A DNA stretch of 64,000 bases, taken from assembly GCA_027922465.2 (NCBI GenBank), contig BQMF02000064.1:1218163-1282162 (forward strand), in the 5' to 3' direction. Below the pieces are notes generated by a model. The model saw nothing but the letters and a program-made list of their open reading frames with translations, was not told where the DNA came from and did not search any database. Shown here one piece after another: positions 3,700 to 62,082 of this stretch. Each line of letters begins with the position of its first letter. The stretch's first letter is position 1. Position numbers and translations under genes: made by a program. This DNA comes from Turritopsis dohrnii. Lineage: Eukaryota; Cnidaria; Hydrozoa; Anthoathecata; Oceaniidae.

Positions 3700-5346
3700 A
3701 TGTCGTCTTATTTCAATTCATTACCTGTTGTTTCTCGCAAAAGGTATGAAGAGAAAATTTCACTAATTGGTAATCAAGATCCGTACCAAATCCCCGATCA
3801 AGAATGGAATTCTGATCTTAATTCATTTCCTCCTCTCACCTACATTGACATGGTGAATTATCTTGTTCTTGGATCGAGCCCCTTTTTATAATATGAAAGA
3901 TTTCAAGAATTATAAAAGTTTGGAGTGCTACGATCGTTTCTTATCCGGATGGGTTCAAAAGGTTCAAACTTTTCAACACACCACAGAAAATAAAACTTTC
4001 ACTGTTATTCGAGCAAGGGTTCTTCATAGTCAACGTCTTAGTGAGAAACCGGTGTCTTCTTGGATAATTTGCAACAGCGATGGAGAAATCTGCTGCTGCC
4101 ATTGTACATGTATGGCAGGTTTGGGTGAAAGTTGTTCCCATGTAGCTTCCATTATGTTTTTTGTTGAGGCTGCAGTGAGATTGCAAGAGAAAAAAACCGT
4201 AATCCAAGAACCTGCTTATTGGCTATTACCATCATCAAAAAAATCAATTGAGTATGCTGCAGCCAAAAATATTGATTTCAATTAATCCGCTACTCAAAAA
4301 AAAATATTGGATAATAAAGTGAAGGATCCCTATTCTACTACCGCATCATCATCTTCATCAAATAAAGGGAAAAAAAATGTTCGGAAAGCACCGGTTGACA
4401 AATTTTCCAATTTTTTACAAACTATTTCTTCAACTAAACCTGCTGTTTTGTCTGTCTACCCTGGATTCAGTCATGAATATAAGCCAAAAACATTATCAGA
4501 AAAATTTCCACTTGTTCTGACAGAATTATTTGACGAATCTTTGATTGGGTTACCATTAAATGATATCTAAAGTTATTGCAGTACTCTTCATCATAAATTA
4601 GCTGCTACCAAAGAGCAGATTGCTTCTGTTGAGGAAGAAACTCGTAGTCAGTCACATTCTAATGCCTGGTTCCAGTTCCGTGCTGGAAGAATTACAGCTT
4701 CAAAATTTAAATCAGTCATATCAACATCTCTTACAAATCCTTCCAAAAGTCTCATTAAAACTATTTGCTATCCATCTACATATAAATTCACTTCAAAAGA
4801 CACAGAATGGGGTAATAAACATGAGAAAACAGCCATGAAGAAATACCTTGATATGGAAAGTCAAAACCATGTCAACCTACATGTTGTCGAATGGGTTTGT
4901 TTCTTGATTCAGATCATCCATACCTTGGTGCTACTCCAGATGGAATCATAAAGTGTTCTTGCTGCCCTGATCGTTTGTTGGAGATCAAATGTCCATATAC
5001 CTTGCGTCGCTATACACTTGATGAATTACCATCTTCATTTTACCTGGAAAAATCTGAAACTGGTGTTAATTTAAAAAAGAATCACCAATATTATTTTCAA
5101 GTACAAGCACAAATGGCTATCACTAAAATCAAGTCATGCCTTTTTTTTGTATGGACAGAAAAGGACCATTTCCTCCAACACGTACCATTTGATGAGTCAT
5201 TTTGGAACAGTCACTTGAAAAAATGTAACACCTTTTTCAATTCTGTTATTCTTGTAGAACTTGTCAGTAAATATTTCAGCCAAGCAACACCGGAGACTGT
5301 TTCAACCGATCATGATTATGCTTATCCTTGCTCTATGGAAGAGTGA
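3700..5346 (+). pseudogene. SWIM zinc finger / YqaJ-type nuclease, broken
   Basis: This is the remnant of the accessory gene of the transposon. The ATG at 3700 opens about 60 codons. Reading then shifts near 3865-3890 into a frame with a SWIM motif (CHCTC...CSH, about 4095-4145), then past a stop near 4570 into a stretch with the YqaJ start region (FRAGRITASKF, EWGNKHE, about 4660-4830). It shifts again near 4880 to the catalytic region (GATPDGI and LEIKCPY, about 4930-5000), ending in TGA at 5346. YqaJ proteins are lambda-exonuclease-like nucleases with an Asp...Glu-x-Lys active site, and all three residues are still visible. At least three breaks mean no full protein can be made from this copy. 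Confidence 0.8.
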
Positions 5347-5757: not shown

Positions 5758-7317
5758 TTACTCATTAGGAACAACTGAGGGACATAAGTTAGTGATAGCA
5801 CATGCCACAGTGGTAATTTTATCCAACATAGGTAAATCTTGTCCAGGTCTTGTCATGACTAAACTAATGGGTATGGTACTTTCTAGCATGGTAAACTTTT
5901 GTCTAACTACACCAATAACTCGTTCTAAATGAATTCGTACATTGGCAGTAGCTCTTGTTGACTCAATTTCCTTCCCACTCAGTTGATGCTTTCCACGTGT
6001 AAATGCTGGTATTTTAACACTTGCACCAACTCCAGCAACAAGTTCGTCAATATCAAACCCACGATCAGCCAAAACAACATCACCCGGTAGTAGATTGCTG
6101 ACAAATTTGGACTCCCTGACAAGATGCTTATCACTTACTCGGCCTCCCCAACCATCTGATATAAAGCTAATAGAACCCTGTGGTGTGATTCCAATAAGAT
6201 ATTTGATGGTGTTGTGGTGTTTGTAGTTAGACCATGTTTGAGCTCTTGCATAAAGATTGGATGGACGTTCGATGAACACTTCAAAACAATCAATTATAGC
6301 CACCACTTTCCGGCCAAAGTTTTCACGAAAAATCAGTGGCATTGATATTACTAAGTCATCACGATGGGGCCAAAATACTAATTGCTTCAAATTGACATAC
6401 AACAAGTCCATCACTTCAGTAAAGCTTTTTGATACTAAGCTAGCACTCACACCATATCTGTACGCCAAATCTTGAACTTGAAGGTTTAAACGCAGCCTCA
6501 TCAAAGTTACAATATATTTCTGGAACTTTGTTAAACCAGAATTTTTCCTGAAGGATATGTATTCCGATATGAGTTCGAACATTGTCATCAAAACTTTGCT
6601 TGATGCGAAGCCAGTATAATATAGTACTTTTGCATCATCATGAAAATCTGTCTCATCCATTAACCTAATGGTATTAACAGCTTTACTTAACCGTGCAACC
6701 TGCCTACGCAAGGAACTATTTTCAATACGAAGCTGACTAACTTCATCATCTTTCTCATCAACCTCATCAACTTCCATCATATCATCATCAACAACTTCCA
6801 TATCATCATCAAACACATCATCAACCACTCTAGAACTACTTTCGGCTACAAAACTCAACTCTGACAACTTCAAAGCTGTCTCCATTTCCCTCTCAAAAAC
6901 CTTCTTTCTCCTTCCTACACACCTTTCATATCTAGCAACACTACTATTACTACGGCTGCTAGCAACACAACTAGAACTACTAACAACAACAACATCACTA
7001 TTACTTTCATCAACATCAATATTTAAACGGTCACCATAACCCAACTTCAGCGATGGCACCCAATCTGGGTTTGTATCATCCAAAAGATGAGCAGGTGAAC
7101 CACTAACAAAATGAGTACTACAAACTCGCCAGGTATCGATTTTTTTGTACGATGAATCAGCACGATGGATAGCAGCCAGCCAACAATTTCTTCGCCTCTC
7201 TGTTAGTGCTTTTATCTGGTCTCCTTGGATTGTAATAATCTTCGGCAATCGATAAAAGCTTACATTTTGTTTGCCCTGTATGTTATCAAAATCTACAACA
7301 CAGCAAGCTGTAGACAT
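5758..7317 (-). CDS. THAP-domain DDE transposase (ISL2EU type), intact
   Basis: A 519-residue single-exon ORF. The N-terminus is THAP-like (FYRLPK, WLAAI, then CSTHF at residues 66-70), the sequence-specific DNA-binding C2CH finger. Cys5/Cys6 are present but the second Cys expected about five residues later is Asp/Phe, so the finger is atypical. A Ser- and acid-rich linker (about 110-195) leads to a coiled stretch. The RNase-H-like catalytic domain of the DDE_4 type follows with AIIDCFE, then LADRGFD, then a Glu in RIHLERV, the expected D-D-E. It should cut and paste the element at its ends. The frame is fully open, unlike the partner YqaJ gene, so this copy may still make transposase. Confidence 0.85.
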   Translation of the reverse strand: MSTACCVVDFDNIQGKQNVSFYRLPKIITIQGDQIKALTERRRNCWLAAIHRADSSYKKIDTWRVCSTHFVSGSPAHLLDDTNPDWVPSLKLGYGDRLNIDVDESNSDVVVVSSSSCVASSRSNSSVARYERCVGRRKKVFEREMETALKLSELSFVAESSSRVVDDVFDDDMEVVDDDMMEVDEVDEKDDEVSQLRIENSSLRRQVARLSKAVNTIRLMDETDFHDDAKVLYYTGFASSKVLMTMFELISEYISFRKNSGLTKFQKYIVTLMRLRLNLQVQDLAYRYGVSASLVSKSFTEVMDLLYVNLKQLVFWPHRDDLVISMPLIFRENFGRKVVAIIDCFEVFIERPSNLYARAQTWSNYKHHNTIKYLIGITPQGSISFISDGWGGRVSDKHLVRESKFVSNLLPGDVVLADRGFDIDELVAGVGASVKIPAFTRGKHQLSGKEIESTRATANVRIHLERVIGVVRQKFTMLESTIPISLVMTRPGQDLPMLDKITTVACAITNLCPSVVPNE

Positions 7318-7569
7318 CTTGATAGTGATTTGTGAACCGAGTTGTTTACTTTACTATGTTCCGTACGATAATTGGCACTTGTACGAAGGTGGCCACATAC
7401 GGAAACAACTACGATGGCGGCCCGATCTGCACTATGTTGACCATGGTACACATCGCGCATTACCCAGTAGACAAAAACAACTTTCATGTAAGTAAAGTTA
7501 AGAGAGAATCAATAATACTCCAAAAAATTTAAATTCTTAACATTCAACAAAACTTTTATTTCCATTTCA

Positions 7570-18587: not shown

Positions 18588-19443
18588 TCTATATATTAAT
18601 AGCCGATTCTCTGTCTGTCTGTCTGTTTGTTTGTCTGTCACGCAAAATGGTAGATTAAGTTGTGAGCGAAATTATTTCTTTTTTTGTGTGCGACGTGAGT
18701 TCGAAGCATATACATTGCAACCCCAATCGAACGTGACTTTTTTTGGCTGATGAACTAATAGAAATAACGTTTTGTTTTTATCATTATTGTTAGTTTTATA
18801 TTCCACGTTGACTTGGCTTTGAAAACAGTACATCAACTAAATACAAAGAAACTAACTGATTAAACATTTTGGACAAAAAACAGCAGTGGCAGAACGTGGT
18901 AGCATCTCGGTTTGCCAGTGTATCCTAACGTATCCTTACCTGACTGTCTGAGACGGGTGAAGTTTTTTTTCGAGTAATCAAAATGTTTAAAAACCTATAG
19001 GTAAAAAAAAGAGTATCATAAAACAAAATATTTTTTTTTGCTTTTGTCATAATAGTTGTCTTTAATCGATTTCTTTTAATCTATTTTATTTTATATCAGA
19101 TCGAACGTTTCTTTTATTCACTTGATTCATTTAGCACGTGCCTTTTCTTCTCTCCTCCGGTGTGATCTTTTTAAGAAGAGAAACCATTTCCCCCTGACGT
19201 TTGATAGCACCCATGTTAGAGCGCGTGACTTTTTTAAAACAAAAGTTAATAAAAAGTTGAAGTTTTCTCTCTATATGTTTTCAGTGTATTGTTACACTGA
19301 TAAAAAATTTGTTTTACCAGAGGTTGTGACTTCGAATCTGCTTCTGGTTGTACGAGCCGTTTATAAGGAAAATTGACGTTTATTGATACAGTGATACAAA
19401 GCAGGTGGACATGGGCGGCGAGCGACGCCGCCTTGGCGGCTAG
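18588..19443 (+). mobile_element. Non-autonomous Helitron, tandem unit 1
   Basis: Starts TCTATATATTAATAGCC after an A and ends CTAG before a T, as Helitrons require (5' TC, 3' CTRR, A/T target). Eleven bases before the end is a perfect hairpin, GGCGGCG-AGCGA-CGCCGCC. It contains a TCTG/TTTG microsatellite near the 5' end. There is no Rep/helicase coding sequence. Confidence 0.9.
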
Positions 19444-20533: not shown

Positions 20534-21431
20534 TCTATATATTAATAGCCGATTCTCTGTTTGTCTGTTACGGAAAATGGTAGATTAAGTTGTGAGCGAA
20601 ATTATTTCTTTTTTGTGTGCAACGTCAGTGCAAAACAAATTGCAACCCCAGTCGAACGTGACTTTTTTTGACTGGTGAACCAATAGGAATAATGTTTTTT
20701 TTATTAAAATTATTATTAATTTTATATTCCAAGGACTACTGTTGACTTGGCTTTGAAAACAGTACATCAACTAGATACAAAGAAACCTACTGATTAAACA
20801 TTCTGGACAACAAACAGTGGTGGCATAAGCGTGTTCGGTTTGCCAGTGTTGTATCCTAACGCTTGGCTGATTGCCTGAGATCGGTGAACCTTTTTTTCGA
20901 GCAATCAAAATGTTTAAAAACCGAAGCTTTCCTTGCACGAAAAAAGAGTATCATGAAACAAAATATTTTTTTGCCTTTGTTTTATTAATTTAATTTCTTT
21001 GTTATGCGCTTCTGATCGAACATATTTTTATTCACTTTTTATTCATTTAGCACGTGCCTTTTTTCTCTCCTCCCGTGGGATCTTTTTAAGAAGAGAAACC
21101 ATTCCCCCCCTACGTTTAATAGCACCCATGTAAGAGCGCGTAAATTTTTTAAAACGAAAGCTGATAATAAGTCGAAGTTTTTTCTCAATACGTTTTGAGT
21201 GTATTGTTATACTGATCAACGATTGGTTTTAAAAAATAAATAAGTAACACATCATGAAAAACCTTAAAAATTGATGCAAAACTGATATAACACTGCATAC
21301 CAGAGGTTGTGATTTTGAATCTGCTTTGGCTGAACACAAGTTGTACGAGCCGTTTATAAGGAAATTTGACATTTATTGATACAGTGATACAGAGCAGGTG
21401 GACATGGGCGGCGAGCGACGCCGCCTTGGCG
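20534..21431 (+). mobile_element. Non-autonomous Helitron, tandem unit 3 (3' truncated)
   Basis: Begins TCTATATATT directly after unit 2. It keeps the terminal hairpin but loses the final bases, breaking into unrelated sequence after TTGGCG at 21,431. Confidence 0.85.
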
Positions 21432-22081: not shown

Positions 22082-23031
22082 CTAGCCGCCAAGGCGGCGT
22101 CGCTCGCCGCCCATGTCCACCTGCTCTGTATCACTGTATCAATAAATGTCAAATTTCCTTATAAACGGCTCGTACAACTTGTGTTCAGCCAAAGCAGATT
22201 CAAAATCACAACCTCTGGTATGCAGTGTTATATCAGTTTTGCATCAATTTTTCAGGTTTTTCATGATGTGTTACTTATTTATTTTTTAAAACCAATCGTA
22301 TTGTATTGTATTGTATTCAATTTATTTAACGTTGACATAGTATCGTTGATCAGTATAACAATACACTCAAAACGTATTGAGAAAAAACTTCGACTTATTA
22401 TCAGCTTTCGTTTTAAAACATTTACGCGCTCTTACATGGGTGCTATTAAACGTAGGGGGGAAATGGTTTCTCTTCTTAAAAAGATCCCACGGGAGGAGAG
22501 AAAAAAGGCACGTGCTAAATGAATAAAAAGTGAATAAAAATATGTTCGATCAGAAGCGCATAACAAAGAAATTAAATTAATAAAACAAAGGCAAAAAAAT
22601 ATTTTGTTTCATGATACTCTTTTTTCGTGCAAGGAAAGCTTCGGTTTTTAAACATTTTGATTGCTCGAAAAAAAGGTTCACCGATCTCAGGCAATCAGCC
22701 AAGCGTTAGGATACAACACTGGCAAACCGAACACGCTTATGCCACCACTGTTTGTTGTCCAGAATGTTTAATCAGTAGGTTTCTTTGTATCTAGTTGATG
22801 TACTGTTTTCAAAGCCAAGTCAACAGTAGTCCTTGGAATATAAAATTAATAATAATTTTAATAAAAAAAACATTATTCCTATTGGTTCACCAGTCAAAAA
22901 AAGTCACGTTCGATTGGGGTTGCAATTTGTTTTGCACTGACGTTGCACACAAAATAGAAATAATTTCGCTCACAACTTAATCTACCATTTTGCGTAACAG
23001 ACAAACAGAGAATCGGGTGTTAATATATAGA
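22082..23031 (-). mobile_element. Non-autonomous Helitron, inverted copy
   Basis: Reverse-complement copy with CTAG at 22,082-22,085, hairpin just inside, and 5' TCTATATATTAA at about 23,020-23,031. It is closer to unit 3 than to units 1 or 2 and keeps the intact 3' end that unit 3 lost. Confidence 0.9.
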
Positions 23032-40069: not shown

Positions 40070-40511
40070 TTCTAGAGATAATAAAATGCCGATTGCAGGA
40101 CACACGGTCAAACTCTCATAGTCCCAGAAAAAAATCGGTAAAAATGACAAAGTGCCCACCCCTTCTGCGCATGCGTCGAAAAATGTTGACGTCAGCACTA
40201 TCGTCGAAAACCGTCGAAAAATGTTGACGTCAGCACTATCGTCGAAAAGTGTTGACGTCAGCACATCATCGAAGTCATCAATCAAAACCACCCCCAAATG
40301 AATGCTGACGTCAGCAGTTTCATCGGTCACGGTTGAATTGCCCTCCTCGTAAAAATTCATCAAATGAGTCAGGGAAATCCCCTGACTCAGTTCTGTCCAC
40401 TCGTAAAAAATTTCCAAGTTGAAAAAGTCTAAAGGATGTTGAGTTATTTCAGAAACGTTGTTACTTCTTTATATAACAAGACTAAGGAGAGACTAGGATA
40501 TGGACAGTCAC
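40070..40511. repeat. Polinton left terminal inverted repeat
   Basis: Matches 56,460-56,745 and 61,518-62,080 in reverse complement, running 76 bases past the ATG of the ankyrin gene. It holds four perfect TGACGTCA palindromes (40,187; 40,225; 40,253; 40,306), a CTGACTCA..TGAGTCAG inverted pair (about 40,363-40,388) and the word GCGCATGCG. Relative to the right repeat it lacks the GAGTCGCTGCGGAGGGAG tandem block and the nested transposon. Confidence 0.9.
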
Positions 40512-41344
40512 ATAATGTGAGTGATTTTAATAAGGCAATGCTAGCAGCAGCAGCTTACAATGGTGACATCGAGGAGGCAATGGTAGATACAGCTAGCGAA
40601 GGTGACATCGAGGAGGTAATGGTAGATACAGCTAGCGAAGGTGACATCGAGGAGGCAATGGTAGATGCAGCTAGCGAAGGTGACATCGAGGAGGTCAAGC
40701 TGTTAAAGCAATATGGTGCGACGGCGTTTGATGAGGCAATGGCTGCAGCAGCTGGTGAAGGTCACATCGAGATCGTTAAACTCTGCAAGGAGTGGGGCGC
40801 GACGGATTTTAACGAGGCAATGGTAAATGCAGCTTTGTTTGGTCACATCGAGATCGTTCGACTATGTAAGGAGTGGGGCGCGACTCAGTTTGACGACGCA
40901 ATGAAGTTTGCAGCTGGGATAGGTCACATCGAAATTGTTAAACTCTGTAAGGAGTGGGGTGCGACTGATTTTGATGAGGCAATGTGGAGAGCAGCTTTCT
41001 TTGCTCACATCGAGATCATTAAACTCTGTAAGGAGTGGGGTGCGACAGATTTTAACCGGGCAATGCTAGCAGCAGCTTTCAATAGTCACTTTATGATTGT
41101 AGCACTCTGTCGACGTTGGTTAGGTTATGATGATATTCACGAGGAGCTCTTTCGCTATCATCACAAGCGTCGATTCGGAAATTATGACGCTATTCACGAG
41201 GAGCTCTTTCGCTATCATCACAAGCGTCGATTCGGAAAAGATCTCTATTACGAGTTGGTGGAAGTTACCATGCATCCGGATAGGGTGTGGGATTGGTACT
41301 ATGATGAGGAAGATAAGAAATTTCTAACTGGCTATTTTCAATAA
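40436..41344 (+). CDS. Ankyrin-type repeat protein of the Polinton
   Basis: 302 residues. The first about 25 (MLSYFRN, then TSLYNKTKERLGYGQS) are encoded within the terminal repeat and match the N-terminus of the PolB ORF at the other end, with about 35 codons missing. Then come short GDIEE(A/V)MVDTASE units and five longer ankyrin-like units (HIEIVKLCKEWGATDFNEAM and variants, about 33 residues). The C-terminus has a 22-residue duplication (HEELFRYHHKRRFG twice). Ankyrin repeats bind proteins, and in large DNA viruses such proteins often act on host pathways; the role here is unknown. A 7-bp deletion upstream removes the TATATAATAAA motif kept before PolB. Confidence 0.75.
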   Translation: MLSYFRNVVTSLYNKTKERLGYGQSHNVSDFNKAMLAAAAYNGDIEEAMVDTASEGDIEEVMVDTASEGDIEEAMVDAASEGDIEEVKLLKQYGATAFDEAMAAAAGEGHIEIVKLCKEWGATDFNEAMVNAALFGHIEIVRLCKEWGATQFDDAMKFAAGIGHIEIVKLCKEWGATDFDEAMWRAAFFAHIEIIKLCKEWGATDFNRAMLAAAFNSHFMIVALCRRWLGYDDIHEELFRYHHKRRFGNYDAIHEELFRYHHKRRFGKDLYYELVEVTMHPDRVWDWYYDEEDKKFLTGYFQ

Positions 41345-47146: not shown

Positions 47147-47242
47147 TTATTTACTCGACCTTTTCAATCTCTTCGAATCTATTAAACGCGCTGCAGAGAG
47201 CGAGCTCTAAGGAAAGGGGTTCTGGATTTGAAAAGAGATAAA

Positions 47243-48301
47243 ATGAATATTATAGATCCGCTCAAGCAAGTTCTCGCTATAGATTTTACTAAGAAGAGAA
47301 ATGATTCAGTTACATCCAGATTTAACAGGCTGCTGGGTTCAAAGATAATCATGTTGACAACTCTCATAACGGCATGGTGTTGGTACAAAGATGGCATGAA
47401 TTGCAATATGTTAGGTTGGGATGTAGGGAACAAATTCATACAAAATGCTTGCTGGATGAAGGGTCTATATATATATGAGGAGCTCACAAAATATGAACTA
47501 TCTCACGAGTACGGAATTCCTGATACTCTCGATATGACTGGAATTCTCCAGCAGCGAGATGGCAGTCATGTGCTATGTAAGTCGCGAGGATCATGTGTGC
47601 CCATGAAAAAGACTATTATCACATCTTACCAATGGATTCCATTCTTCATTCTAGCATGTTCAATGGCATTACAGTTGCCATATATGCTGTTCAAGTGGAA
47701 CTTTGAGCGATTGGAAAAATTTAAGAGCTGTGTAGAATCTTCCTCTGCAGCAGCGATTTATAATGTGTACTTTTGTGATACTGTGACTTGTACGAAGAAT
47801 GTGTACATTTTTTGCCAATTTATAGTGGAAATTTTGTACATCATCATGAACCTGTCGATTCTCCAGGCATGCAGATAACTCATAGGAGTGCCAGATATAA
47901 CGAAGAAAGGTAATAATGTACTCTTTCCTACTATGGGTATGTGCACGATTGAGGCAAATAAGGGTAGTCTCACGGTTATATACACCAATACACTAACTTT
48001 ATCATGTGAGATATCTTCACATGTCATATATGGCTACTGCTTCATTATAGTGTGGTTGGTTGCAGTGTTAGGAACTATAGTTTCTTGCATTGGTGTACTA
48101 ATAACACTAGGGCGAATGTACCAAAACTACCATCGTTCCAATAGGAAAGGCTTCACTATGTATCAATTGGAACTTTATGAGGCTGTTCGAGAAAAAGATA
48201 TCCAAAAATTTTATGAAATCAACCAGATGATGACAAATTTCCCTGATGAACAACTTCCAACTTGCACACGTATGGACGTCAAGTGGGAGACATTTACTTG
48301 A
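47243..48301 (+). pseudogene. Innexin-like gap-junction protein, one in-frame stop
   Basis: From ATG 47,243 the frame runs about 211 codons to TAA at 47,876 and continues in the same frame to 48,301, together the length of an innexin (about 350 residues). Features: TM1 (IIMLTTLITAWCW), first extracellular loop with two Cys (MNCNMLGWD, then ACWMKG), the innexin signature YQWIPF before TM2 (FFILACSMALQLPYML), TM3 (IFCQFIVEILYIIMNL), second loop with FPTMGMC and LSCEI, and TM4 (IIVWLVAVLGTIVSCIGVL). The single stop sits in the second extracellular loop. Innexins form intercellular channels; viral innexins (vinnexins) are known in ichnoviruses. Apparent host capture. Readthrough versus true loss is open. 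Confidence 0.8.
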
Positions 48302-55800: not shown

Positions 55801-56611
55801 TTACAGCCCACTTGAAGCATTCTTCATCATCGTTTTTAGGGTTGATGATTGCCTTTTTCGACGCTATCCAGGATGGTAGTTGATGTATGAAGATCCTCTC
55901 ATCAGCTGCAGCTTGTGAAAGTCTACGTCCAGGTGCATGATGTGATCGATGGTGAAGCCGCTTTGTGGTAATGCAGGATGCTCTACTTGGGTTTTGATAT
56001 ATGCAAACATCTCATCCAATATCTCTTTCATGTCACTACCTTGGAACACTCTCATCATCAAGCTGTTAAAACTTTGTCTATCCTTATATATCCATATTTA
56101 TCTCCTTTTGTAACATCTTCTCCTTCTAGATCATCATCTTCAAGTTGAATTAAAAGCTTCTCTCGCTTCTTCCACATGATCCATAGAGAGAGTTGTACTT
56201 TAGCAGACCCCATGTCCTCAACCTGCTCTTCCATTAATTCTCCACATTTGCTCTCACTAGTGTGAAGTATCCATCAACATCAGCTTTTGCTATACCAGCT
56301 ATACGAAAGCTTCGGAAAGTTTTATGTAGTGCATGCTTATGCTTCATAGGTATAAAATCATCACTCATACTTGTGTTGTTGGTGTCTTCCATCGGCATGC
56401 TCGCCTCCTCTTCTGTCATGGCTTCGCGTTCAACAGCTGAAATCAGTGGTGACTGTCCATACCCTAGTCTCTCCTTAGTCTTGTTATATAAAGAAGTAAT
56501 AGACTCGCGAATCTTCTGCAATCGATCTGCGAGTGCATCACGAGTTGTCGTTACAGGCGCTGAAACAGCGTTGTATAATTTAGATACTGCGTTTCTGAAA
56601 TAACTCAACAT
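52855..56611 (-). pseudogene. Protein-primed DNA polymerase B, multiply frameshifted
   Basis: The replicative polymerase of the element. About 3.75 kb matches a 1,100-1,250-residue Polinton PolB. Read on the minus strand: N-terminus in the terminal repeat (56,611), an exonuclease motif (YADFES, about 55,300), a zinc-like patch with RDHCHYTGLYRG, LRFIDS (about 54,680), YHDVYLATDV (about 54,350), polymerase motif A (DANNLYG, about 54,050), motif B (LMNNSVFGKT, about 53,600), motif C (YMDTDS, about 53,320), and a C-terminal tail to about 52,855. Frame changes occur near 56,230, 55,870, 55,720, 55,340, 55,230, 54,800, 54,510, 54,064, 53,790 and 53,060. Not functional. No copy is joined here. Confidence 0.9.
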
Positions 56612-56626
56612 CCTTTATTATATAGA
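56612..56626 (-). promoter_or_regulatory. TATA-like motif before PolB
   Basis: TCTATATAATAAAGG immediately before ATG 56,611. Seven bases of it are missing at the equivalent spot before the ankyrin gene. Confidence 0.45.
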
Positions 56627-56746
56627 CTTTTTCAACTTGGAAATTTTTTACGAGTGGACAGAACTGAGTCAGGGGATTTCCCTGACTCATTTGATGAATT
56701 TTTATGAGTGGGGATTTCCTACTTTCGAGGAGGGCAATTCAACCGC

Positions 56747-57198
56747 ACGGCTGTTTCGAACACTTAGTTTCGCGAAACTCAGACTGAGCATGCGCAATTT
56801 TCCGTTTCAAAATATGAGATTGTCTCCTTTGGCGTTTCTGCTCCACCATCTGTGGGGATTTTAAGGGCCAAAAACTTACCCATAACTTAATATGAGAGAC
56901 AAAATAAACCACCCACGATGGAGTTTATTGTGTACACTTTCCATAAAAAATATCATAGTAGTCAAATTTTAATGACAAGCCCGCGAATTTTACAATTTAG
57001 AAAAGCTCCTGAAAATCTGGGTGAATAACTATTCCACTTCTTTGTAGTTTTTCGCAGACATCTGAAGTTTTGCCACAAGAGGAATAACAATACAGATTAC
57101 AACATAATAATTATCTTTCCTTTAAATTTTATTACACACTGCAAACATTTTTTTAAAAAAAGTTACGAAGCTTCAAAGTACAGCTATTTTCACCTGTC
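56747..57198. other. 5' part of the nested transposon
   Basis: Left terminal inverted repeat followed by about 400 bp of AT-rich leader before the ATG at 57,199. No ORF of note. Confidence 0.5.
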
Positions 57199-60100
57199 AT
57201 GGCGGACAACACCACACTTCACGAAATTGCTTTAGAAAAACTTTGTCGTGTTTGTGGAAATATGCTTTCCTACAGAGTAAAGTATGCTACATCAGAGCAC
57301 ATTAACAACCTTTGCTCAGCTTTCAATACAGATTTCGCAAGAGATACAGTTAACATTCACCCCAAATATTTTTGCAATAACTGTCTAGCAAAAATGAATA
57401 ACTTATTGAAACGTGGCTCCATTCACCAGTTAATTCCTGTAGAATGGAAAGAGCACATCACAGACAACTGTGGCACGTGCGACTTATTTAAGAGCAAAGG
57501 AAAAGGTGGAAGACCCAGCAAAAGTCGAAAAAAAGGTCGCCCTATCAAACCCTTGAAAGTAGAACACAACTGGTCACCATCGTTAATCAACGAACTACAT
57601 GTCATGTCGCCACAGCAACTTATTGATTTAAACCTGACAGATTTTTCAATCTCAATCAACAATCATATCAGACCTTACATCTGCGAAATTTGCCAAGACT
57701 TGATCAAAAGGCCTTTGTATATTGTTAACTGCAACCATACTTTCTGTGGAGTTTGCCTAACATCACATTTAAAAACAGATAGCAATTGCCCTTCTTGCCA
57801 CAATTATATTTCACCCAATATCAACTCGATACAATCAGGACAAGTTCTTATTAACACCCTATTGATGCAGAATATAATGTGTTCCACTTGCAAAATTAAT
57901 TTTTCAATAAATGGTTTCAAAGGTCACATTTGCAGAAAACCAGTCCTGACCACTAGTGACATTCTTAACATTAATCCCCATCAAGAAGTTCCTCAAGAGG
58001 TGATGGAGTGTATTACTCATGTTGTTGAAATTCAAATGGAGAAGTCGCAGTTACCTAATAATAGCATACAGCTTCCTACAAAAGGCTTAAGGTAAAATAC
58101 TCTACCATACTTAGACCAAAAAATCTAAAACAAATCAGTTTTGTTGTGAATGTGAGTGTGTATATGCATGTTTTTTTAAAATAAAAAAACACATCTATAC
58201 AAATAAGAAAATGACGTACAACAATACCATAAAAAAATAATTGATTTTCATGTCTGTAAACTATCCCAGTGGGCAAAAAGTCACTGCAGAGAAGTGCATT
58301 TGCTTTGAAATACTGTATAAACTTGTGCAAGATAGACTCCACCACTTTGATTTTCAAAAAATATGCCCGCTGGGAAGGCAGTCCATGAACACAATATTTA
58401 CTATTATATTTAATCTGCACAGATTTAAACACTTATGTAATTCTTATAGCCACTGACGATGACACAGATTCGTATCCCTACGAAGCATTCAGATGTATCG
58501 AGCAGAAGAAGCGTGGAATGTAGGACAAAAACAGCTAAAGAAGTGATGTCTATGATAGCTGGCCCCAGTAATGGTGCAATTTCAACCCAAACTACTGCAA
58601 TTATTCAAAGTCTAGATAAAAATGAACGTGAAAATATTGTGAAAAAACTGAAAGTACAAGCTACCATCCCTCCACAGCATGTCGCTGCAATGAAGTCGTC
58701 CCTCAATATTCCCTGGAATCAGTTTCGACAAATTTCTCGTTGGTTGAATACTTTCAACGTCAAAATATCATCTGAAAAGGAGACTAGAAAAATTGCAACA
58801 GAATGGGTAGGGGCTGGGTTGAATGCTGAATTAGCACCATTAACTAAAACTAATGGCACAAAATTGGAAGTCATCCTTATTCCATGGGCCTATCTTTACA
58901 ACTTGGTTGGTCATTGCCTCAAACGTGTGTCGCTGTTAGAAAAACGTCATCTTCTAGTGCAGCACAGTTTCATTAATCTAAGTGAAATCCACATCAAAAT
59001 AGGTGGAGACCATGGCGATAACAGCTTCAAGATGGGTTATCAAATCGTAAATGTGAGAAATCCCAACAGGCCAGATAATACAGTCATATTTTCGATATTT
59101 GAAGCCAAAGACACCACCAGCAACCTGCAATATGCTTAAAACGGTTTAAAACACAAGTTGCAATGTTACAGAAAGCAAAGTTTCAGAACCAAAACTTCCG
59201 TGTGTTCATGTATGGCGATTATGCGTTTCTTTGTGCTATGTACGGATTGTCTGGTGCGAATGGTAAGTGTCCAATCTACAATAAAAAGCATAAATATCCC
59301 AAATCTGTACTAAATAACATATCTATAAATATCCCTCTACTGCATTATAACAATTTCAGGTCGTCATCCATGCTTGTGGTGTTTAGCGACACGGGAGGAC
59401 ATGCAGTCTCCGGCTTTTGCAAGAGGAAGTTTTGAGCCTCGGACCCTCGAAAACTTGAAAAATCACCATGAGGCCTATGTTTATGCAGGAAAAAACGTTA
59501 AGAATGCCAAAAATCATTTTAATGTAATTGAAGAGCAATTCTTTAATATACCACTTAATCAGGTAAAGTTTTGTTTAATATATAATTAAGAAGCATTTTA
59601 AATGAAGAAAAAATTAAGATGAGACTCACATTATTCTTTAAAGGTTGCCATTCCGGGATTGCATCTTTCGTTGGGGATTTATGGAAAAATTTTCAACATG
59701 TTGGAAATGGAATGTCATTTGCTTGACATTGAAATGGCCACACTAAAATCAACAAATGTGCAGGGAACAAAAGACATAGAATATCAACTTTACATTGAAA
59801 AAAGAGCAGATCTGGAGGAAGCAAAGGAGGCAATAGTAGATGAGATCGATTTGATAAAAGAGGAACTGGGATATCACCTGATAGCTGGTGGAAGTCAAGA
59901 TGTTGTTTCCACATATTATATTCCCAGAGTGAATGGGCTTGAATCTGAAAAGAACAAAATCGAAAATTCAATCAATGACCTTATCAAGAATTTACCAACT
60001 GGTTCTGGTCCGTGTGCTTTGTCTCTTGATGCCAGTTTGCAGAAAATAAATATCGAAAGACAAGCATACCATGGCAAAAGCTTCATTGGGAATCATGTCC

Positions 60101-60856
60101 ATAAGTTGCTAAAAGTAAGATATGATAAATTGTTAATGATAGGACTCATTTCATAGAGAAGCTTGAGGTCAACTAAAAGTTTATAAGAAATTTTTTATTT
60201 TAGAAAGAAAATACCATACATATATGTAGTGGGATCATCAAAGCTGTTCAGAATCATACAGACGATGAACACATTCTTGAAAAAGCACAGGCAATGTGCG
60301 ATAAATTTACAAAGTTAATCGAGAAGTATTCTGTTTGTGACAACATTTTCAATAGCTCCAGGGAGTTAAGTGCAAGTGAAATTGACTCCCTTGGTAAGAA
60401 TAATTTTTTAAGAAAATTCACAAAATATTACCACTGTTGTAATATATTTTTTATTTTCCTTTTTAGAAATTGCGATCAATTCATTTTTAAACTTTTTGCG
60501 ACTGAACTGGCCTAAAATCAATATCAGTCCAAAGTTACATATTTTAGAAGACCACGTCGTGCCATTTGTTAGACAATGGAAATCAGCTTGCGGAGTTTAC
60601 GGTGAGCAAGGTGGGGAAAGTCTTCACCATCAATTTAAGCAGATGAAAGCCAGGTGAATATTTCAACTCATTACTTATATACACGGAACACTATGAATTT
60701 TATCAAAGTTTCAAATGCATATTTAACCTTAGGTACGTAGGAGTGAAAGATCCAGTAAAACGTCTAGAATATACAATGAAACAGCATTTGCTAGCTTCAT
60801 GTCCTGATGCACAAGTAATCAAACCAAAAGTGAAGAAAAGGAAACGAGAAGAATAG
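57199..60856 (+). pseudogene. RAG1-like N-terminus fused to a D-D-E transposase (one frameshift)
   Basis: Exon 1 (57,199-58,091) begins LEKLCRVCG, then IHPKYFCNNC, as in the RAG1 zinc dimerization domain. It has a basic GRPSKSRKKGRPIK stretch, a C3HC4 RING (CEICQ, NCNHTFCGVC, CPSC) and a further finger (CSTCKINF..GHIC). Later exons run from about 58,468 to 59,262, then 59,360-59,562, 59,643-60,114, 60,204-60,393, 60,467-60,653 and 60,733-60,856, with GT-AG borders. Catalytic residues: Asp in KIGGDHGDNSFK, Asp in VFMYGDYAFL, and Glu in GEQGGESLHHQF. A zinc pair HPCLWC and later His resemble the CCHH motif of RAG1-like transposases. A 1-base frameshift near 59,137 breaks this copy, and the exon 1-2 junction is unresolved. 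Confidence 0.82.
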
Positions 60857-61516
60857 TTTAGAATAGTTTCCTTAGGGGACGAAAATTTTGTTAGAGTAGA
60901 ACGTCAGAGTGAGTAATCGTATAAAAATCAGCGAATAACACTAAGTGAGGATGTTTTTTGATATTATAGCTAATCACTTAAATCAGAAGTAAATATTAGA
61001 GGTATTATTTATTCAGTTTTGACTTTTAGCAACAACAAAACGTTAGTTTGTCACGGAATTTCATAGAATTGTGTATATGAAAATCAGGAAAGTTTGAGAT
61101 ATTGTAAAAAGTTTAAAAAAAATGTTTGCACTATACCTTTTGGAAATATCTTTTATTAGCCATCTAACTACCATACAACATCAGTCAAATCCATGAGAAA
61201 ACTTTGAAAGTTGAAAAATTGACCCTCGTTTACCTTGACATAAATTTCAAGTCAGAAACAAACGATAAAAGTCATAACCATGCCAAAGCCTTACGCTCGC
61301 TCCCTGAACCTTAGATTCCTGTAAGCGAAGAAATGTGAACATGTGGTGAATCGTTCTGATATATTTTGCAACCAGTGAAATGAGAGATTTTCCAAAATTG
61401 GAAATACAAACTTAGTACCTAGGAATGTATAAAACCACGCGTGTTTCTACCATCTTTAAAAAAAGCCGTCGGACTTGGCGCATGCGTAAACTGAGTTTCG
61501 CTTCCGAAACAGCCGT
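60857..61516. other. 3' part of the nested transposon
   Basis: AT-rich sequence from the transposase stop to the right terminal inverted repeat (61,467-61,517). No second gene (no RAG2-like kelch sequence) seen. Confidence 0.6.
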
Positions 61517-62082
61517 GACCGATGAAACTGCTGACGTCAGCATTCATTTGGGGGTGGTTTTGATTGATGACTTCGATGATGTGCTGACGTCAACACTTTT
61601 CGACGGTTTTCGACGATAGTGCTGACGTCAACATTTTTCGACGATAATGCTGACGTCATCATTTTTCGACGATAGTGCTGACGTCAACATTTTTCGACGA
61701 TAATGCTGACGTCATCATTTTTCGACGATAGTGCTGACGTCAACATTTTTCGACGCATGCGCAGAAGGGTGGGCACTTTGTCATGCGAGTCGCTGCGGAG
61801 GGAGTCGGAACCCATGTGTGTGTGTGTGGTCATTTTTACCTATTTTTTCGCGAGTCGCTGCGGAGGGAGTCCGAACCGACGTGTTTGTGTTGCGCTCCGG
61901 AATGGAAAAAATCGAGAGTCGCTGCGGAGGGAGTCGGAACCGACGTGTGTGTGTGACCTGGGCACTTCGATTTTTTTCGCCGATTTTTTTCGCCGATTTT
62001 TTTTTCGCGAGTCGCTGCGGAGGGAGTCGGAAGCACTTGGACACCGTTGTCCTACAATCCGCAATTATCTATCTCTAGAACC

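Follow-up and report, generated by a model that had tools for sequence, protein, structure and literature searches.

The origin of the RAG1 N-terminus and that of the 12/23 rule, named for V(D)J signals that differ by 11 bp (a 12- versus a 23-bp spacer), are questions of long standing. Both are raised by a locus in the hydrozoan Turritopsis dohrnii, within a 64,000-nucleotide stretch of DNA (assembly GCA_027922465.2, contig BQMF02000064.1, positions 1,218,163 to 1,282,162) that we refer to as the window. An initial annotation, made from the sequence alone, placed there a transposon nested in a Polinton and encoding the modules of RAG1 in their vertebrate order. Does such an element join a RAG1-like enzyme to ends that are unequal in the manner of V(D)J signals? 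With a probability of roughly 0.85, we read it as a cut-and-paste transposon of the Chapaev type, whose seven-exon gene would encode a single RAG1-like transposase of about 960 residues and whose bipartite ends, asymmetric by one helical turn, would be paired as one long and one short partner.

The transposon and its unequal ends

The transposon is 4772 bp long, occupies 56746-61517 (+), starts with CACGGCTGTTTCG and finishes with the exact reverse complement of CACGGCTGTTTCG. The initial annotation gave its coordinates, CAC termini, exact 13-bp terminal repeat and flanking ACCG copies correctly but overlooked a second block lying at unequal depths at the two ends:

56742..56745 (no strand): target site duplication ACCG, left copy; equally perfect over 4 bp in all 13 other end pairs
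56746..61517 (+): complete Chapaev-type transposon, 4772 bp, from end counts, duplications and near-identical copies
56746..56758 (+): left end, outer block, 13 bp, same at both ends
56772..56795 (+): inner block of the left end, from base 27 inward
61478..61501 (-): inner block of the right end, from base 17 inward, 10 bp shallower than its left counterpart
61505..61517 (-): outer block of the right end
61518..61521 (no strand): target site duplication ACCG, right copy, directly outside the element

In the genome that contains the window (435.9 Mb in 891 contigs) there are 162 occurrences of the 13-bp end as against 2 of a reversed control pattern, far beyond chance, so that further copies do exist, a point the initial annotation had left to be checked. 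From 100 listed of these 162 places we fetched 13 convergent pairs of exact ends, picked blind to their flanks, and all 13 are bordered by perfect 4-bp duplications. Seven of the pairs are 4737-4775 bp long and 98.6-99.6% identical to the window copy, two (5481 and 8371 bp) contain additional DNA, and four (L018, L019, L020 and L021) form a separate non-coding 2.3-kb group that has the 13-bp ends and the 4-bp duplications, yet no 15-mer in common with the window transposon; its members probably moved in trans. When the flanks of 29 elements were compared with the whole set of sequences gathered, unoccupied counterparts were found for six (L011, L015, L021, L034, L036 and L046). The flanks overlap by exactly four bases, i.e., the empty site holds a single-copy tetranucleotide, in 33 of 33 flank-pair matches, although many of these involve overlapping loci or repeated copies of a single repeat; in 4 of the 33 the tetranucleotide is one base off the duplication. 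Given the end copies, the perfect duplications, the ~99% identical copies and the single-copy empty sites, the element is a real and recently mobile DNA transposon. The window itself also holds, at 19388-19391, 21381-21384 and 22134-22137, empty copies of the repeat that L046 entered elsewhere in the genome.

At each end of the window copy the inner block spans 24 bp and is 83% complementary to its counterpart. Further families were located by a search with exon 1 (at least 134 matches), and the window together with 38 loci fetched by region made 39. Both ends are defined in 30 elements (29 in the first count, with L033 added later), drawn from nine coding families, namely the window's own and eight at 28-76% exon 1 identity to it, and from the one non-coding group; nine loci in which both ends were not found (L037, L041, L043, L044, L047, L051, L052, L053 and L056) are uncounted. 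The offset is 10 or 11 bp in 30 of 30. In every coding family the left inner block is the deeper one, the margin being 10 bp in five families and 11 bp in four, and the non-coding group, whose inner block is unlike theirs, also differs by 11 bp in all four copies. Within the coding families the position of the best inner segment ranges over bases 14-24 on the right and 24-35 on the left, with the offset constant at 10 or 11.

In one set of loci, ends were chosen by an exact 4-bp duplication and the outer 16 bases; in the other sets, candidates were ranked by the outer match together with the strongest inner match, which could lie at any offset between -25 and +25; this ranking partly selects for the presence of an inner match and leaves the offset unselected. 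For L042 the second-ranked candidate was used, which bears the family's CACGGCTG end that the first-ranked one lacks, and the ends of L045 and L046 were placed where the two copies cease matching. Among single-base shuffles that kept the outer 13 bases (1000 per representative), none reached the observed inner match in 7 of 10 representatives, and 3, 7 and 15 did so for L018, L054 and L048, respectively. Comparison of left with right ends across families gave a peak at +10 to +12 in 64 of 72 pairs, the eight exceptions falling at +9 (four), -1 (two), -5 and +4 (one each).

The offset might nevertheless be an ancient accident retained by descent, without any role in pairing, the inner block serving only transcription or replication. 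All the families are related and all end comparisons come from a single genome, and relatives' DNA from other species, on which the asymmetry could be tested independently, was not found in the viral or genome contig collections. The left end, moreover, lies ~450 bp upstream of the start codon, and the inner block has a palindromic GCATGCG core, with GCATGCGC at 56788-56795 and GCGCATGCG at 61478-61486, that we take to resemble the binding site of the promoter factor NRF1; GCATGCGC/GCGCATGCG could possibly be a promoter site or a transposase site. A GCATGCGC-like core recurs at base 43-45 on the left and 33-34 on the right in six of the nine coding families, and has its best match elsewhere at one or both ends in the L045/L046, L049/L050 and L054 families. 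Set against an accident, however, are coding families that are mostly 26-37% identical to one another in exon 1 and whose end sequences diverge (e.g., CACGTGCGTTCAAAACATGC... versus CACGGCTGTTTCGAACACTT...) but still hold 10 or 11 bp, the presence of an inner block at the right end, where the transposase gene needs no promoter, and the same 11 bp in the non-coding group around an unrelated inner block. An accident of descent thus seems to us unlikely, if far from negligible, and we prefer the reading in which the offset serves the pairing of a long with a short end.

A difference of 10-11 bp amounts to one turn of B-DNA, and by analogy the offset resembles, in geometry, the 12/23 asymmetry of V(D)J signals. 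Of the features of those signals, the one-turn difference between bipartite ends is present in 30 of 30 elements, while neither the CACAGTG heptamer nor the A-rich nonamer occurs in the element's end sequences. The literature searched, with Repbase sequences outside the comparison, yielded no description of one-turn asymmetry in Chapaev, nor any paper on Chapaev elements with asymmetric terminal inverted repeats or on helical-turn asymmetry together with RAG1. As far as these searches reach, bipartite ends with an inner block 10-11 bp deeper at one end are new.

The seven-exon gene and its product

The gene between these ends reads as follows:

57199..58091 (+): exon 1, which encodes the next four features; frame broken by one base near the exon's end
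57232..57480 (+): RAG1-type N-terminal zinc region (CRVCG ... IHPKYFCNNC ... VEW..H..NCGTC), from PF12560 and the PDB match
57505..57543 (+): basic stretch, read from the sequence; contains GRP, an AT-hook-like motif, twice
57682..57798 (+): C3HC4 RING finger, PF13923 at 39.7 bits (cut-off 27)
57880..57933 (+): extra zinc finger downstream of the RING, read from the sequence
58450..59262 (+): exon 2, start of the core with the first and second D; frame break between the two
58996-59019 (+): first D, KIGGDHGD, exon 2, sequence motif
59214-59231 (+): second D, GDYAFL, exon 2, sequence motif
59360..59562 (+): exon 3, CxxC
59362-59382 (+): CxxC motif, RHPCLWC, exon 3, sequence motif
59644..60114 (+): exon 4, part of the core; probably the helical insertion region, judging by the model of relative P0011
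60204..60393 (+): exon 5, core
60467..60653 (+): exon 6, H(4)H and catalytic E
60535-60555 (+): H(4)H motif, LHILEDH, exon 6, sequence motif
60601-60621 (+): catalytic E, GEQGGES, exon 6, sequence motif
60733..60856 (+): exon 7, C-terminus and stop

All junctions of exons 1-7 follow the GT-AG rule. Two one-base frame breaks, one where exon 1 ends and one within exon 2, are peculiar to the window copy and were overlooked in the initial annotation; seven other copies were compared and have neither of them. Three of the seven can be read without interruption across the whole set of exons, from ATG to stop, as a single frame of 960 codons, and the remaining four have frame breaks of their own. The named protein relatives come from Hydra, Hydractinia, Ephydatia and Branchiostoma. 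In Hydra vulgaris, model P0011 (LOC124809337) combines an N-terminal zinc region (recognised by reading), the RING, both D motifs, CxxC and E; P0016 (LOC124812047) has all of these except the first-D motif and P0007 (LOC105850185) all except the E motif, and the best protein match, P0001 (LOC124815234; 35% identity over 82% of the query), begins inside the RING. In a sponge model, P0003, both the N-terminal motif and the core are present; RAG1_imp_bd stands at 16.2 bits (cut-off 23.3), and the RING match is likewise below its cut-off. Because three of the seven other copies are open throughout and the Hydra models agree, the case is well supported that exon 1 and the core encode a single protein of ~960 residues.

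The break in the window copy at the junction of exons 1 and 2 could be taken to mean that two genes are involved, with exon 1 as an N-RAG-TP-like RING gene standing beside a Chapaev core made up of the catalytic exons, and the initial annotation had itself allowed that the two might belong to different transcripts. Separate transcripts are ruled out by the open frames of the other copies. The Hydra gene models also unite both parts, and relative P0002, which has no RING, runs straight from the N-terminal part into the core, leaving two genes a very remote prospect beside the single transposase.

Exon 1 holds the modules that the initial annotation read in it, i.e., the zinc segment with IHPKYFCNNC, the basic double-GRP stretch, the RING and the extra finger, and profile searches extend its likeness to RAG1 beyond the RING: it scores 31.3 bits against RAG1_imp_bd (PF12560; cut-off 23.3). 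Against the PDB, whole exon 1 finds RAG1 at 2.8e-7 among generic RING proteins, some of which score higher. Once the RING is removed (143 aa), RAG1 is the sole significant match (E 2.7e-5; best single stretch 0.016) and the next unrelated chain stands at E 1.6; a generic RING match is ruled out because the RAG1 match survives this removal. A profile of 39 relatives, with the window excluded, finds only RAG1 chains in the PDB at E<=0.1, with 1.7e-16 over RAG1 residues 102-379 and 1.5e-11 for a RAG1 chain with the N-terminal region alone. By these profile comparisons the N-terminus is of RAG1 type. In the structure model of exon 1 (predicted local distance difference test score 80), the RAG1 dimerization domain ranks among RING proteins without being singled out, 1rmd (that domain) aligning to model residues 142-250 in a tie with generic RING proteins. 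As the model fails to set RAG1 apart from RING proteins, the RAG1 specificity resides in the N-terminal zinc region rather than in the RING. RAG1_imp_bd is detected in 10 of the 39 relatives and the RING domain zf-C3HC4 in 16 (E<=1; many of the 39 are fragments). All 12 family representatives have the RING pattern, and their GRP motifs number two in eight, one in two and none in two.

The downstream exons supply the D, D, CxxC and E already noted, together with an H(4)H. No search by sequence profile gave a significant match that would establish the kinship of the core: the 39-relative profile remains below threshold against the C-terminal part of RAG1 (-0.9 bits) but is collinear with it, including the RAG1 H..H and E962. 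Exon 2 matches PF06918 (DUF1280) at 52.2 bits (cut-off 25). Structure prediction, the other check proposed for the core, gave a catalytic core of RAG1 fold in the model of relative P0011, and on this predicted structure the core is of RAG1/Transib type.

The host Polinton and a probable excision footprint

The transposon is located in the right terminal repeat of a Polinton, in agreement with the nesting first described. The host has the long terminal repeats, the retroviral-type integrase (rve 30.5 bits, slightly below the cut-off of 32.6) and the A32-type packaging ATPase of these elements, as well as an endonuclease VII; no polymerase B was matched among the open reading frames (ORFs) scanned with Pfam. 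The opposite arm bears on the history of the insertion:

40174..40431 (-): left terminal repeat of the host Polinton, with duplication-TG-duplication at the matching site

Aligned to the joined flanks of the transposon, this left repeat reads ACCG-TG-ACCG where the right repeat has ACCG-element-ACCG. It is probably an excision footprint, because the two copies of the duplication flank two bases equal to the element's terminal TG, in which case the Polinton repeats would at some time have exchanged the insertion. The footprint is known from one case only, and duplication-TG-duplication could instead be the original sequence, with the right arm having lost six bases next to the insertion. This would demand a deletion exactly at the insertion boundary that left a perfect 4-bp duplication, and the empty place has a single 4-base copy in all 33 other flank-pair matches; we consider it improbable and retain excision as our reading.

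Several other features of the host and the window were seen. The Polinton terminal repeat contains 28-bp tandem repeats at 61572-61783 (TGCTGACGTCA...), apparently unequal in number between the arms. Inside the Polinton, an innexin-like (gap-junction) ORF at 47186-47875 (+) matches PF00876 at 30.5 bits (cut-off 25) and has no relative at E<=0.001 in the protein search. At its left edge, an ankyrin-repeat ORF at 40433-41341 (+) has 39- and 81-bp internal DNA repeats and an N-terminal peptide similar to ORF 56234-56614 on the other arm. The window also includes a THAP + DDE_Tnp_4 transposase ORF at 5761-7350 (-) and a YqaJ-recombinase fragment at 4852-5343 (+).

Proposed mechanism and relation to known systems

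In the mechanism that we propose, the transposase would run from the N-terminal zinc region through the basic stretch, the RING with its extra finger and a helical region to a D-D-E core of RAG1/Transib fold. Probably dimeric like RAG1, it would bind the CAC outer block and the second, inner block at each end, one of its domains reading the latter, and its RING may be active. Since, at the 5' end of the gene, the inner block lies deeper by one helical turn, a productive complex would probably require one long and one short end. Excision would leave the duplicated target and a few bases, and the excised element would join a target staggered by 4 bp. The window copy, dead through its two frame breaks, could still be mobilised by intact copies.

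We advance only tentatively, at somewhat less than even odds, the broader idea that transposons of RAG1 architecture outside vertebrates already use a 12/23-like rule, the transposase pairing a long and a short end one turn apart. If so, a zinc/RING N-terminus, a RAG1-fold core and asymmetric bipartite signals could have been combined before RAG1/RAG2 and vertebrates arose, and Chapaev-type transposons would be either the source of the 12/23 rule or a case of convergence with it. One genome with several near-identical copies, three of them open, unites a RAG1-type N-terminus, a predicted RAG1-fold core and one-turn ends with no sign of RAG2, and so offers a direct test of whether a RAG1-like enzyme alone enforces long/short pairing.

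Chapaev transposons have CAC...GTG termini and 4-bp target site duplications, and the element has both, along with a D-D-E core with C(2)C and H(4)H. The Chapaev assignment of the initial annotation thus fits, and the element agrees with a RING-bearing Chapaev in every testable feature, the Chapa domain (the RAG1-type N-terminus that precedes the RING) being recognised by proxy through its RAG1 matches. The wider CMC/CMCT clade is characterised by CA..TG termini and a D-D-E core in which C(2)C and H(3-4)H motifs follow the second D and precede the E (PMC12730594). Passages of Kapitonov and Koonin (2015; PMC4411706) describe two Chapaev subgroups in which, as in RAG1, a RING follows the Chapa domain, and regard Chapa/RING as probably fused to the core in the common ancestor of Chapaev, Transib and RAG. 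The suggestion that several transposase lineages shared the RAG1 N-terminus is therefore supported but was already published there. Because that paper already describes Chapa and RING in Chapaevs, the RAG1-like architecture is a further well-documented case rather than a discovery, and the Hydra vulgaris models P0011, P0016 and P0007, each of which brings the N-terminal zinc region and the RING together with the core, show relatives of this layout among public proteins. The Chapaevs of Kapitonov and Jurka (via PMC4411706) have the same N-terminal RAG1-type domain, RING and distantly RAG1/Transib-type transposase; those passages do not mention a one-turn end asymmetry.

The likeness to N-RAG-TP of Aplysia, drawn at the outset, is weaker than claimed: both carry a RAG1-type N-terminus on a mobile element, but N-RAG-TP is described, in the relevant passages of PMC8355894, as an N-terminal part only, whereas the present element has its own catalytic core in the same frame. 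Transib elements (HzTransib; the asymmetric Transib5 and Anopheles Transibs) share the core fold and the CAC ends but have no N-terminal zinc/RING region and make 5-bp duplications; their ends are mostly symmetric (passages of PMC8289069), with 12/23 spacer asymmetry in a few families (passages of PMC8355894). ProtoRAG and other RAG-like (RAGL) transposons of amphioxus and others have a RAG1-like core and bipartite asymmetric ends, yet the ProtoRAG asymmetry is 4 bp rather than one turn, and ProtoRAG has a RAG2-like partner and 5-bp duplications. Its ends measure 27/31 bp, and other RAG-like ends also appear asymmetric (passages of PMC8289069); in PMC8355894 a passage of the text names ProtoRAG as the only asymmetric invertebrate case and a figure legend gives the oyster RAG-like ends as asymmetric too. 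Invertebrate RAG-like enzymes are expected, conditionally, to be rather insensitive to asymmetry (a passage of PMC7204232). It is most unlikely that the element is itself a RAGL or Transib transposon rather than a Chapaev, in view of its 4-bp duplications in place of the 5 bp of those elements, a core without a sequence-level match, and the lack of any sign, in a scan confined to ORFs, of the RAG2-like kelch gene that RAGL elements carry as a second gene (beyond the transposase exons no ORF exceeds 118 aa, and eight other-strand ORFs have no Pfam match to E 1).

Vertebrate RAG1 stands apart in working with RAG2, of which the element shows no sign, and in its 5-bp duplications; the element also has CACGGCTG as its outer block, with no A-rich nonamer, and a core unrecognised by sequence profile. 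The two nonetheless have in common the order of zinc region, RING, finger and D-D-E core with CxxC and H(4)H, the core fold as predicted, and bipartite DNA signals that are asymmetric by one turn.

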